Below the pieces are notes generated by a model that worked only from the letters and a program-made list of their open reading frames with translations, ran no database searches and was not told the DNA's origin. Source: a virus. From it: a stretch of 37,624 bases of DNA. This document shows, piece by piece, positions 29,285-37,624 of this stretch. Both the position numbers and the translations under genes were made by a program. Location of the stretch: positions 1-37,624 of IMG/VR virus record IMGVR_UViG_3300023440_000012. One strand, 5' to 3'. Numbering within the stretch: the stretch's first letter is position 1; every line of letters begins with the position of its first letter.

Positions 29285-29334
29285 TTTTTTTTATTTAATG
29301 TTAGATTATATACAATATAAATGAGGAGGGTATG

Positions 29335-31797
29335 ATGAAGATAATATCAATAGAATTAGTGGGGTATAAAAGACTAGCTCTTAATAACATTAACCGTATA
29401 AAACTGACACCCGAGAGTAAGATTCAGTTTATTCTAGGTACTAACGGTTCTGGTAAATCGTCGTTATTGAAAGAACTATCACCTTTACCAGCTATCGCAA
29501 ACGAATTTTCCAAAGGTGGGTATAAGGAGATTATTATAGAGCATAGATCCTCTACCTTTATCTTACTGAGTGATTTTAGATCTAATAAAAGCTATAGTTT
29601 CATTAAAGATGGTCGTGAGATTAACCCTAGTAGTACCATAACTGTATATAAAGAACTTGTAGAATCCGAGTTTAATATAACACAGGATATCCATAACCTA
29701 ATGATAGGATCTACCGGTTTTCATAGTATGTCTGTTATGGAAAGACGTAATTGGTTTACTAAAATATGTGATAGCGATTACACTTATGCCATACGTTTTT
29801 ATAACAAATTGAAAGAAAGACATCGGGATCTTTTAGGAGGTACTAAACTATCACGAGTACGACTAGTTCAAGAATCCGATAAGTTACTTTCTGAAGAAGA
29901 TACCGTAAAACTTAAGAGTAAGCTTGATGGTTTAAATTTACTACGTCAGGATTTACTATCTCTCAAAACTACAATTCCAGATAAGTCTTCTATATTATCA
30001 ACGATTTCTAGTAGTTATGATAGCATAATGTCTCTTGTAGATACGACTACCACATTAATGAATGATGTCAAATTGGGGGAGGTTGATAATCTAAAACTTA
30101 ACCTCTTAGTTGTGCAATTAGAAATTCAGAGGTTAAAGGGGGTATCAGAAATCATATATGAGGAACTTAAAGAGAATAGGATCATACAAGATATCTTATC
30201 TAAAGGCAATATTGATGGCTCTGGGGATTTAGATAAGAATATAGATGAGTTATCTAGTAGTATAAATACTCTAGAAAAAGGATTATATCTGAATCTACCA
30301 ATAACAGATTCTGAAGCCATTAATGTGATAGATACAATACGCCCAGATCTAATCAATATTTGCTCTATAATACCAGTTAATATAAATAGTGATTTTACTA
30401 GAGAGCGACAAATCGATCTGGATGAAAAGTTAACTCTATTAAAGATAGAATATAGGAAGTTAGATGGTGAGCAAAATAGAGATACAAAACTAAAAAGTGA
30501 ACTAGAACATCTTAAAATCCATAATCAAGTAGACTGTCCCAAATGTAAATTTAGATGGGCTATGGGGTATGATGACTCCAAGTATAACCATATAATATCT
30601 AGTATAACCACCCGTGAAAGTAGACTTGTTACGATATCCAAAGATATAACGGCTATAACAAATACCTTAAAAGAACTATCTGACTATTTTGATAATCTTA
30701 GGAGTCTTAAGCAGATAATGTCATTATATTCTATATTGAAACCCTACTGGAATTATGTTATTAATAAAGAGTATGTGTTTAAATCACCATCTAGGATAGT
30801 TGATGATTTAGTTATACTTAGGGATGATCTTCTTATAATGCTTAAAATGAATAAATTAACTGATGAATTAAAGAGTGTTAAGCAGCTTAAATGTAAACTA
30901 TTAGAAGATAATATTACCAGTGTTAGAAATATTAACCAGCAAGTAGATACCTTAGAGAGTTCGCTACATAGGAACAATAACGCTATCTCAGAATCACAAG
31001 TTAAATACAACGAGTTAGAAAACCAACTAGCCAACACTATATCACTAGAGGAAAGCATTTCAAGACTTACAAGATTAGCTAAATCTACATATCGTAATGA
31101 GCGTAAACTTAAAGTTATTAAAACTCAAGAAACCCTTAATGATCTTATAAATGAAGTAACCGTAGCCATATCCCAATTAGAACTGAAACTCTCTAAGGTT
31201 GATAGTCAGATAGCAATAGTAAAGAGTATGACTGATAATCTATTAGAATTAGAGAATGAGGAAAAATTAATAAAGCTAGCGGTTAGGGAATTATCACCAT
31301 CTGAAGGTCTGATAGCTAAAGGACTTAATGGGTTCATCAATTTCTTTATTTATGAACTTAATCAATTCATAAAATCCATATGGCTTTATCCTTTGGAACT
31401 CATACCGTCGGATGGTGATAGTGTAGATTTAGATTTTAAATTTAATGTAAAAATTAATGACGATCACATCATTAATGACGTTAAACTAGGTTCATCAGCC
31501 ATGAAAGAAATCATAGACTTAGCATTTAGAGTGGTGAGTGCAAAGTATTTAAATCTAGGTAACGCACCATTATTTCTAGATGAATTTGGAGTTAAACTAG
31601 ATAAGTCGCATAGAGATAGTGCCTTTTACGCTATTAACGAGATATTAACACATTCAGAGTTTACTCAAGTATTTATGATATCACACTATAGTTCTAACTA
31701 TGGTAGTTTTAAAAATGCTGATATAACTATATTAAGTGAATCTAATATAGAGATTCCTAGAGATCTATCGTTTAATAAAAAGGTGGAGATATCATGA
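29335..31797 (+). CDS. SbcC/Rad50-like recombination ATPase (T4 gp46 type)
   Basis: An 820-residue SMC-like protein: Walker A GTNGSGKSSLL near residues 35-45, a long coiled coil, a zinc-hook CPKC at about 401-404 in the middle, a second coiled coil, then FLDEFGVKLD (Walker B, about 745) and MISHYSS near the C-terminus. With an SbcD/gp47 partner nuclease, not in this window, it would process double-strand breaks and stalled forks or degrade host DNA. The ATG at 29335 is preferred to the adjacent ATG 29332 because AGGAGG (29324-29329) is five bases away. The upstream TATACAATATAAATGAG resembles the promoter motif loosely. Its stop overlaps the next start (ATGA). Confidence 0.85.
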   Translation: MKIISIELVGYKRLALNNINRIKLTPESKIQFILGTNGSGKSSLLKELSPLPAIANEFSKGGYKEIIIEHRSSTFILLSDFRSNKSYSFIKDGREINPSSTITVYKELVESEFNITQDIHNLMIGSTGFHSMSVMERRNWFTKICDSDYTYAIRFYNKLKERHRDLLGGTKLSRVRLVQESDKLLSEEDTVKLKSKLDGLNLLRQDLLSLKTTIPDKSSILSTISSSYDSIMSLVDTTTTLMNDVKLGEVDNLKLNLLVVQLEIQRLKGVSEIIYEELKENRIIQDILSKGNIDGSGDLDKNIDELSSSINTLEKGLYLNLPITDSEAINVIDTIRPDLINICSIIPVNINSDFTRERQIDLDEKLTLLKIEYRKLDGEQNRDTKLKSELEHLKIHNQVDCPKCKFRWAMGYDDSKYNHIISSITTRESRLVTISKDITAITNTLKELSDYFDNLRSLKQIMSLYSILKPYWNYVINKEYVFKSPSRIVDDLVILRDDLLIMLKMNKLTDELKSVKQLKCKLLEDNITSVRNINQQVDTLESSLHRNNNAISESQVKYNELENQLANTISLEESISRLTRLAKSTYRNERKLKVIKTQETLNDLINEVTVAISQLELKLSKVDSQIAIVKSMTDNLLELENEEKLIKLAVRELSPSEGLIAKGLNGFINFFIYELNQFIKSIWLYPLELIPSDGDSVDLDFKFNVKINDDHIINDVKLGSSAMKEIIDLAFRVVSAKYLNLGNAPLFLDEFGVKLDKSHRDSAFYAINEILTHSEFTQVFMISHYSSNYGSFKNADITILSESNIEIPRDLSFNKKVEIS

Positions 31798-32738
31798 TAA
31801 TACTTAACAAACACCATAAATCTACTGATAATGCGATTTACATAGGTAGGGGTTCTGTATTAGGAAACCCCTTTGTGATAGGGGTACATGGCTCTAGAAC
31901 CGAGGTTATAGCTATGTATGATAACTACATACATGACCAAATACTTTTGGGTAATAGTAGTATCGTTGAATACATAAAGACCCTAGAATCTAATAGTAGA
32001 CTACTTTGCTACTGCTGCCCCAATCAATGTCATGGTAAGGTTATTGAAAAGTATTGGAAAAAATTAAATAATAACACGTTTAATGGGAAGGTGCTTATAC
32101 CATCTAATGAAGGGGTAGACCATATCAACATATCATCAAAAGCTAATTCAGAATTAGGCACTCTATTATCAGGACATCTTAATAAGATCATATCAAACAA
32201 ATCAACTAAGAATCATAAGGATTATTTTAAAAATCTATACACTAATCTATTTAGAAGTATATCTAAAGATACTATTACTAGTGATTTGTTATGTAATAAT
32301 ATATTACCATTAGAGTTATACGGCGATTCTTATATAAAAGAAAGTAGGTGGTTTACATATACACTATATAGCATCAAGATGAAGTTGACTAATTCACTTA
32401 ATGTAGCAGTAGTTGGCTGTAGGACTATAGCCGATATTGATTTGATATCCCAGTCTATAAATGAAGCGCCCTTCAATGTTGGTAGGATATTATCAGGTGG
32501 TGCTAAAGGAGCTGATACGTTAGGTGAGAAATATGCCTTAGAGCATAACCTACCTATAATATACTTTTATCCATATTGGGAAGAATTAGGTAAGAGAGCT
32601 GGTATGCAGCGTAATAGTGAGATGATTAAATTCGCAGATGGTGTTATTGCGGTATGGGATGGGATATCTGTTGGGACTAGAAATGCTATAGAAACAACCA
32701 AAGCTAACCGTATACCACTTTACCTAAAGATGGTCTGA
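31794..32738 (+). CDS. DUF4326 - SLOG (DUF2493/YspA-like) fusion protein
   Basis: A 314-residue protein with two recognisable parts. Residues 1-90 carry the DUF4326 signature: YIGRGSVLGNPFVIG, SRTEVIAMYDNY and LLCYCCPNQCHG. Residues 203-314 are an SLOG-type Rossmann nucleotide-binding domain (DUF2493/YspA): VAVVGCRT, LSGGAKGADTLGEKYA, FYPYWEELGKRAGMQRN and VIAVWDGISVGTRNAI. The middle (about 108-198) begins INISSKANSELGTLLS, which recalls the opening of NADAR-like phage proteins, but the rest does not follow that family clearly. SLOG domains bind nucleotides or ADP-ribose-like ligands in nucleotide metabolism and immune signalling; the actual job here is unknown. It overlaps the SbcC-like gene by four bases. 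Confidence 0.78.
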   Translation: MIILNKHHKSTDNAIYIGRGSVLGNPFVIGVHGSRTEVIAMYDNYIHDQILLGNSSIVEYIKTLESNSRLLCYCCPNQCHGKVIEKYWKKLNNNTFNGKVLIPSNEGVDHINISSKANSELGTLLSGHLNKIISNKSTKNHKDYFKNLYTNLFRSISKDTITSDLLCNNILPLELYGDSYIKESRWFTYTLYSIKMKLTNSLNVAVVGCRTIADIDLISQSINEAPFNVGRILSGGAKGADTLGEKYALEHNLPIIYFYPYWEELGKRAGMQRNSEMIKFADGVIAVWDGISVGTRNAIETTKANRIPLYLKMV

Positions 32739-32806: not shown

Positions 32807-32841
32807 AAGACAGGACTGACCTATCATGTCAGTCCTGTCTT
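32807..32841 (+). terminator. Intrinsic terminator after the SbcC-SLOG unit
   Basis: A perfect 14-bp stem (32807-32820 with 32828-32841, seven-base loop) followed by TTTTATTCTTCTTTT; also placed to stop the minus-strand gene ending at 32874. Confidence 0.88.
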
Positions 32842-33718: not shown

Positions 33719-33967
33719 ATGATATACACCATTACTAGACATGCAGCTGTATCGTCTTATTAGTTAATCATGCAGATCAACAATTCTGTGATAGTCTGAA
33801 AGTTAAGGATGTATGTATAGGTACGTTACCCATGCATCTAGCATATAGAGTCTGTGAGCTATCAGGAGGAACTATTTGACATTTTCAGACTAATGGTTTC
33901 CTCCGATCTCAGGAGTGTTGAATTAACTGTTGATCAGATGGTTGAGTTAAATGCTCAAATTAACTAG
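33719..33967 (+). pseudogene. Frameshifted Csx16-like (VVA1548-family) gene remnant
   Basis: No single frame here exceeds about 60 codons, but three frames read in order give one family-like sequence. From ATG 33719 the first gives MIYTITRHAAVSSY, stopping at 33761-33763. The second, from about 33757, gives NHADQQFCDSLKVKD then VCIGTLPMHLAYRVCELSGG, stopping at 33877-33879. The third, from 33875, gives FDIFRLMVSSDLRSVEL then TVDQMVELNAQIN, stopping at 33965-33967. The order TRH at the start, IG-LPMHLA in the middle and DLRSVELTVDQM at the end is that of Csx16-like proteins (about 90-100 residues), which I recall also in giant phages. The part between TRHAAV and NHADQ is also about ten residues short. 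Two frame breaks and a deletion point to a decayed gene; sequencing error would have to strike twice. Confidence 0.6.
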
Positions 33968-37104: not shown

Positions 37105-37624
37105 TTAAATTACTCTTAAGAAAGGTTGGATGTTATTGGTGGATGTATAGCCTGTTTCATTTATATTGAGTATTTTACGCATAGTGGCATTATAAGTAAA
37201 TACAGATCCTGCACGCATATAATTGTAACTATCTCTTATACAACCTACTGCTATCATAAGTCCAGATGTGGAAATGGAAACTGAAGATCCAAAAAAATCA
37301 TTAACCATTGGGGATGGTTTATCTATAGTTGCATTTAATACCCAGGTGGTGCCAGTTCTTACATATAGGTAAATTCCACCAACGCCACCAATACCATCCT
37401 TGGACTTGTTTTGAACTCCTATCACCAGTTTACCACCAGTTGAATCAATAGCAATAGATGTGCCAAATTTATCACTCAATACTGGTGTAGGGTTATTGAT
37501 AGTAGTTTCTAGTGCCCATGTAACACCAGTCCGTAGATATACATAAACCGACCCAGCATCAACGGCATTAGTATCATCCATAGGGACTCCTACTACAAGT
37601 CTACCACTAGCTGAATCAATAGCA
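37105..37624 (-). CDS. FG-GAP-like repeat protein, C-terminal part (putative tail fibre/adhesin), truncated by window edge
   Basis: The frame is open to the last base of the window, so the gene starts beyond it; the ATG at 37581 is internal. The 172 visible residues hold three copies of the unit with Y-x-R-T-G-x-T-W-x-L-E/N and segments FGTSIAIDSTGGKLVIGV and FGSSVSISTSG, FG-GAP-like in pattern. Its end (KILNINETGY...IQPFLRVI) parallels the end of the plus-strand gene at 2-844. A role as a surface adhesin or fibre is inferred from the repeats. It is followed within two bases by the 282-residue gene. Confidence 0.7.
   Translation of the reverse strand, partial: AIDSASGRLVVGVPMDDTNAVDAGSVYVYLRTGVTWALETTINNPTPVLSDKFGTSIAIDSTGGKLVIGVQNKSKDGIGGVGGIYLYVRTGTTWVLNATIDKPSPMVNDFFGSSVSISTSGLMIAVGCIRDSYNYMRAGSVFTYNATMRKILNINETGYTSTNNIQPFLRVI

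Follow-up and report, generated by a model that had tools for sequence, protein, structure and literature searches.

Viral proteins in which DUF4326 is joined to SLOG, Macro and NADAR domains have been published, and in the accessible text of the surveys that describe them such fusions are predicted to process ADP-ribose (PMC9503650, PMC7824862). DUF4326 was proposed, in the accessible part of one of these sources, to adopt a rhodanese-phosphatase fold and to act on ADPR phosphates (PMC9503650); no assayed function for the domain was found in the accessible literature on the fusions. The T4 gp30.3 family comprises phage NADARs with histidine as the last catalytic position, and an assayed NADAR from an E. 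coli phage removed ADP-ribose from guanosine (PMC11125620). Jumbo phages meet NAD+-degrading immunity; with Avs5, ADPR rose and NAD+ fell during infection (PMC12931631). The kind of fusion reported here is known, and a gutted NADAR between intact partners is a variant of it; no description of the gutted form was found in the accessible text of the two fusion surveys (PMC9503650, PMC7824862).

The window, by which we mean the whole stretch of DNA analysed, was a single IMG/VR record of 37,624 bases. Its major capsid protein was 43.5% identical to a protein of Burkholderia phage FLC9 (322 kb), and it gave matches to phrog_3231 (major head protein), phrog_2943 (polymerase), phrog_3213 (helicase) and phrog_3004 (virion structural); the window therefore appears to be a piece of a phiKZ-like jumbo phage genome. 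At 37105-37581 it also encoded a phage protein that carried FG-GAP repeats (PF14312, E 3.6e-12) and had no significant PHROG match. The first-pass annotation had placed DUF4326 and SLOG in one 314-residue chain, and this was confirmed by an exact open reading frame and by PF14216 and PF10686 scores above their cut-offs (Table 1). Its remark that these domains are usually separate was only partly right, since such fusions recur in many phages and are described in the accessible text of two publications (PMC9503650, PMC7824862). The ATG of the fusion gene and the 3' end of the SbcC-like gene overlapped by 4 bases. On the other side, the hairpin listed in Table 1 is likely a terminator separating the fusion gene from the converging DUF7194 gene.

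Table 1. Coordinates of the fusion gene, its parts and neighbouring features in the window.
Feature	Position	Strand	Evidence or remark
SbcC-like gene, directly upstream of fusion gene	29332..31797	+	phrog_77, E 3.1e-65
DUF4326 / reduced NADAR / SLOG gene, 314 aa	31794..32738	+	ATG start; ORF coordinates exact
DUF4326 domain, aa 1-95	31794..32078	+	PF14216; conservation across homologues
N-terminal motif of gp30.3-type NADAR, aa 101-127, LIPSNEGVDHINISSKANSELGTLLSG	32094..32174	+	phrog_652, hhalign, local profile
Putative eroded NADAR remainder, aa 128-200	32175..32393	+	alignments, AlphaFold, shuffle control
YspA-type SLOG domain, aa 200-314	32391..32735	+	PF10686; phrog_289; fold; conservation
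Probable terminator: strong hairpin, then T run	32807..32841	+	-23.3 kcal/mol, z -7.0, 0 shuffles equally stable
Csx16-like (PF09652) ring-nuclease remnant, three pieces, two frameshifts	33719..33967	+	E 5.7e-9, pieces joined

Domain identity and the integrity of the two outer domains were established by computation. PF14216 matched aa 6-85 with 64.3 bits (E 1.7e-17), well over the Pfam cut-off of 25. When the window protein was compared with 20+ phage homologues, all 17 strongly conserved DUF4326 positions were kept (N5, Y16, G18-S21, G24-F27, R35, L70, C72, C74, P76, C79 and H80), and the motifs YIGRGS..GNPF and CxCxPxxCHG were both present. PF10686 (YAcAr, YspA-type SLOG) matched aa 204-263 with 29.1 bits against a Pfam cut-off of 28.2 (E 8.6e-7), and the SLOG domain matched phrog_289 at E 1e-21. 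Conserved SLOG positions were retained at 20 of 21, and the motifs G.R, GxAxGAD, W...GK.AG..RN and WDGxSxGT were found together with an SLOG fold. Structures of SLOG type matched this domain at Z 12.3 to 8, those of DprA, ShosA, YpsA and Moco-carrier proteins at Z 12.3 to 11. The ThsA SLOG with 3'cADPR (7uxs) matched at Z 8.3 over 113 aligned residues as one among many SLOG-type structures, with DprA, the Moco carrier and LOG proteins scoring equal or higher. The structure matches for the whole window model were filled by SLOG, and no NADAR was among the matches listed. A PDB sequence search returned nothing. The PADLOC matches to PsyrA and ShosA were rejected as weak SLOG similarity only.

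A middle segment lay between the outer domains, as the first-pass annotation had seen; it measured about 105 residues (aa 96-200) instead of the 90 then given, and had no Pfam match. The SKANSELGTLLS block at its start had been likened to NADAR-type phage proteins, and the likeness held. When the middle was searched in isolation, aa 101-126 matched phrog_652 at E 2.5e-4; hhalign aligned the middle with the start of this family over 31 columns (probability 96%, P 2e-9), and a local profile recovered the aa 101-127 motif at i-E 6e-9. T4 gp30.3 belongs to phrog_652 (E 9.2e-51), and another member, from Vibrio phage pVa-21, could be tied weakly but directly to Pfam NADAR (E 0.007). In its second half the middle kept weakly to the order of the family, with a helical stretch and then ILPLELYGDSYIKESRW at the place of the family's LPLxHYY...W. 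The score of this half was reached by 85 of 4813 scored shuffles (~1.8%), and its NADAR likeness, taken alone, is weak and suggestive only. Fusobacterium phage Fnu1 gp56 (BLAST 48.8% over 43 aa, E 0.8) was dropped as a homologue of the middle because it had no profile link to gp30.3. Small ORFs next to the SLOG genes of Cronobacter phage vB_CsaP_009 and of Serratia phage Moabite were likewise set aside as candidates for a separately encoded middle; by eye they did not resemble it.

The loss of catalytic residues was read from an alignment with 17 members whose NADARs are intact, numbered after the intact relative L129, in which three residues were invariant (17/17 each). The segment with the invariant Glu (E141; motif F.S.EG.WYW) was deleted in the window. 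The invariant Lys (K165; motif G..AK..G) was replaced by R and its motif was gone, and the invariant His (H210; last strand, LPLxHYY) was replaced by Leu, the window reading LPLELYG. The missing core was absent from all six window frames, leaving no hidden core in another frame. The catalytic residues of the E. coli C7 NADAR are E88 and K95 (PMC11543638), and the invariant Glu and Lys match these in kind, the position being compared by reading and not by superposition. Because the middle has none of the catalytic Glu, Lys and His, NADAR activity of the window protein is judged unlikely from its sequence; what had been called an unexplained domain is better described as a probable reduced NADAR.

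Given the window protein together with 55 homologues, AlphaFold returned a mean pLDDT of 87 and a pTM of 0.58. Helices were predicted at 120-133, 141-158, 160-168 and 185-199, and the 100-200 region had a block pLDDT of 63-84, showing that it was not predicted to be disordered. An unstructured middle together with a lost SLOG pocket had been named in advance as the outcome that would speak against the first reading; instead, the middle was predicted helical and the SLOG motifs were intact. The model of L129 (363 aa) had a mean pLDDT of 92, and its middle matched E. coli YbiA (2b3w; Z 12.0, rmsd 3.4, 140 aligned) and the Phytophthora NADAR with ADP-ribose (8bau; Z 11.4, rmsd 3.0, 137 aligned). 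Mapped by eye, the helices of the window middle fit L129 with a span of about residues 122-178 largely absent, which comprises the small sheet and the Glu and Lys helices. A consensus deletion made in assembly could have cost a normal gene its NADAR core, and the two frameshifts of the nearby Csx16 remnant could likewise be sequence errors. However, the middle differs throughout, with two separate gaps relative to L129 and substituted Lys and His in place of a single clean in-frame cut, and the neighbouring long ORFs are intact; we consider an artefact highly improbable.

When viral contigs were searched at the protein level with the window sequence alone, no relative emerged, and family alignments were required. 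In IMG/VR scans, DUF4326, a complete gp30.3-type NADAR and SLOG were joined in the window's order on at least four distinct uncultured-phage contigs, L110 (216,876 bases), L129 (244,725), L140 (167,687) and L272 (272,393). Among deposited phage records, none covered 80% of the intact three-domain query at one place. Other combinations were SLOG-DUF4326 in Vibrio phage SJSY21 (L002), L325, L326 and L328, the reverse order in L228 and L324, a pairing of DUF4326 with an SLOG resembling that of DprA in L098, and DUF4326-NADAR in L115 and L117. Jumbo phages, Agricanvirus-like ones among them, had NADAR-SLOG and Macro-NADAR-SLOG (L016, L018, L144). The same parts are thus joined repeatedly, in either order, and Macro joins them as well; this recurrence speaks for DUF4326, NADAR and SLOG acting on one pathway. 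In the DUF4326 tree the window paired with the DUF4326-NADAR fusion of L117 (95/85), the window branch being long; the SLOG tree did not resolve the window's place. Given the intact DUF4326-NADAR-SLOG relatives, the hhalign P value, the L129 fold and the pairing with L117, the middle is very probably a cut-down NADAR, derived from a NADAR by loss.

Several relatives showed arrangements of their own. In Pseudomonas phage CL (L003, an unannotated record), a YbiA-type NADAR and SLOG shared one ORF (L003:1401-2363), a DUF4326 gene followed directly (L003:2360-2686), and a macrodomain-like stretch was seen by eye farther on. Salmonella phage SA002 carried adjacent Macro-NADAR and partial Macro-NADAR-SLOG genes (L017:973-1845 and 1869-2849), which look like a duplication or splitting of what is one 429-aa Macro-NADAR-SLOG gene in Erwinia phage pEa_SNUABM_37. 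The DUF4326-NADAR protein at L117:2443-3453 had an interdomain insert of ~95 residues that resembled, by eye, a partial second DUF4326 core.

Between the fusion gene and RNase H, the window contained DUF7194, the dead Csx16 and one unmatched ORF. DUF7194 was a conserved neighbour in two relatives, L267 and L268, which retained the order SbcC, DUF7194, RNase H and phrog_4682-like gene without the fusion gene; their own fusion genes lay far off elsewhere in their genomes (fusion gene versus SbcC at ~36 versus 193 kb in G001, and 83 versus 145 kb in G002). In L267 (G002), a Macro gene (E 2.4e-19; L267:7185-7637) stood between RNase H and the phrog_4682-like gene, and its locus was syntenic with window 34.7-37.1 kb; in the other relative of the pair, SbcC and DUF7194 were separated by a DEAH-type helicase. 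These inserted genes indicate that the locus takes cargo, an ADP-ribose-related gene included. The idea of a counter-defence island was weak for the contents of the window itself, and drew partial support from the variable cargo and the Macro gene in relatives. The Csx16-like remnant reported 1 kb away was real, yet broken by two frameshifts, so it is unlikely, on its sequence, to act as an enzyme; active Csx16 degrades cA4 (PMC12409355).

These surroundings bear on two other explanations. The fusion gene could be cargo in decay, the NADAR loss being its first step of pseudogenisation beside the dead Csx16; the frameshifts 1 kb off and the lack of such a gene between SbcC and DUF7194 in the two relatives agree with this. 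We regard decay as unlikely, however, since the frame was open throughout, the conserved positions of both outer domains were kept (17/17 and 20/21) and the middle was predicted to be folded. The protein could also be a DprA-like recombination helper, its SLOG binding ssDNA or a nucleotide and working with SbcC, the partner encoded by the overlapping gene. The 4-base overlap, the DprA fold similarity (Z 11.8) and a PF02481 match (E 6.5e-4, under its cut-off) point that way, but NCBIfam dprA (TIGR00732) reached 14.5 bits against an equivalog cut-off of 191.15, Pfam assigned the YspA type, and the partners found in fusions were Macro, NADAR and DUF4326. With the fusion gene distant from SbcC in G001 and G002 as well, such a helper seems quite improbable.

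We infer ligand, chemistry and counter-defence role as follows. The ancestor would have been a three-domain phage protein, DUF4326-NADAR-SLOG, that processed or sensed the ADP-ribose derivatives made from NAD+ in antiviral immunity (cyclic ADPR, ADPR and ADPR phosphates). In the window phage, NADAR would have shrunk to a connecting helical segment devoid of an active site. The remaining DUF4326 may act enzymatically on phosphates linked to the ribose of ADPR products, as others have predicted, tethered to an SLOG that is predicted to be a sensor or an N-glycosidase for an ADPR-type ligand. Recurrent fusions in differing orders and including Macro, the ThsA-like SLOG fold, the published predictions and the Avs5 results incline us, by a little, to a counter-signalling protein that would handle ADP-ribose derivatives through DUF4326 and SLOG, its NADAR step lost. 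For an immune role of the window protein we put the chances at even. The general reading of the first-pass annotation, an ADP-ribose-type handler in phage-host conflict, was supported, and also appears as a prediction in the accessible text of PMC9503650.

The same domains could instead serve NAD or nucleotide housekeeping, that is, salvage of ADPR products or the chemistry of DNA precursors or DNA modification, with no part in immune evasion. In several phages, standalone gp30.3 or SLOG genes have nrdD/nrdG, PnuC and nucleoside deoxyribosyltransferase in their vicinity, and DUF4326 has been suggested as a bridge between NAD systems and DNA modification (PMC7824862). However, removal of a signal or toxin explains the Macro-NADAR-SLOG chains at least equally well, and no NAD synthesis gene was present among the subset of window ORFs scanned; housekeeping is thought a little less likely still than decay. 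The reduced NADAR could, instead of decaying, have been repurposed as a non-catalytic module that links ligand sensing by SLOG with the active site of DUF4326 or closes a cage around the ligand, an idea we hold as doubtful. If it were true, the protein would act on an ADP-ribose immune signal as a switch or sponge and not as a chain of hydrolases. Comparison of the intact L129 protein with the window protein, a natural deletion of the catalytic core, could separate the roles of NADAR, DUF4326 and SLOG towards ADP-ribose signals.

Compared with the published viral DUF4326 fusions, as given in the accessible text of PMC9503650 and PMC7824862, the window protein shares the domains of the chain, the phage setting and the predicted ADP-ribose processing, and differs in its probably reduced NADAR, which lacks the catalytic residues. 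Relative to T4 gp30.3 (phrog_652, PF08010), it has the HINxxSKxxxELGxxLS motif and then the LPL..Y and W motifs in order, but is short by ~40-60 residues, including the invariant Glu segment, and has lost the Lys and His. Proteins of phrog_11222 from Agricanvirus and related jumbo phages (e.g., Erwinia phage Ea35-70, L016) likewise carry a NADAR-type segment directly before SLOG; in these the NADAR is intact, the chain has no DUF4326, and Macro is found upstream as a gene or as a domain. The fold of E. coli YbiA and the Phytophthora NADAR is common to the middle of L129, but was not recovered for the window's own middle, where the match list was filled by SLOG. With ThsA of Thoeris the window protein has the SLOG fold in common, whereas no Pfam match to a ThsA-type Sir2 NADase effector was found in it.
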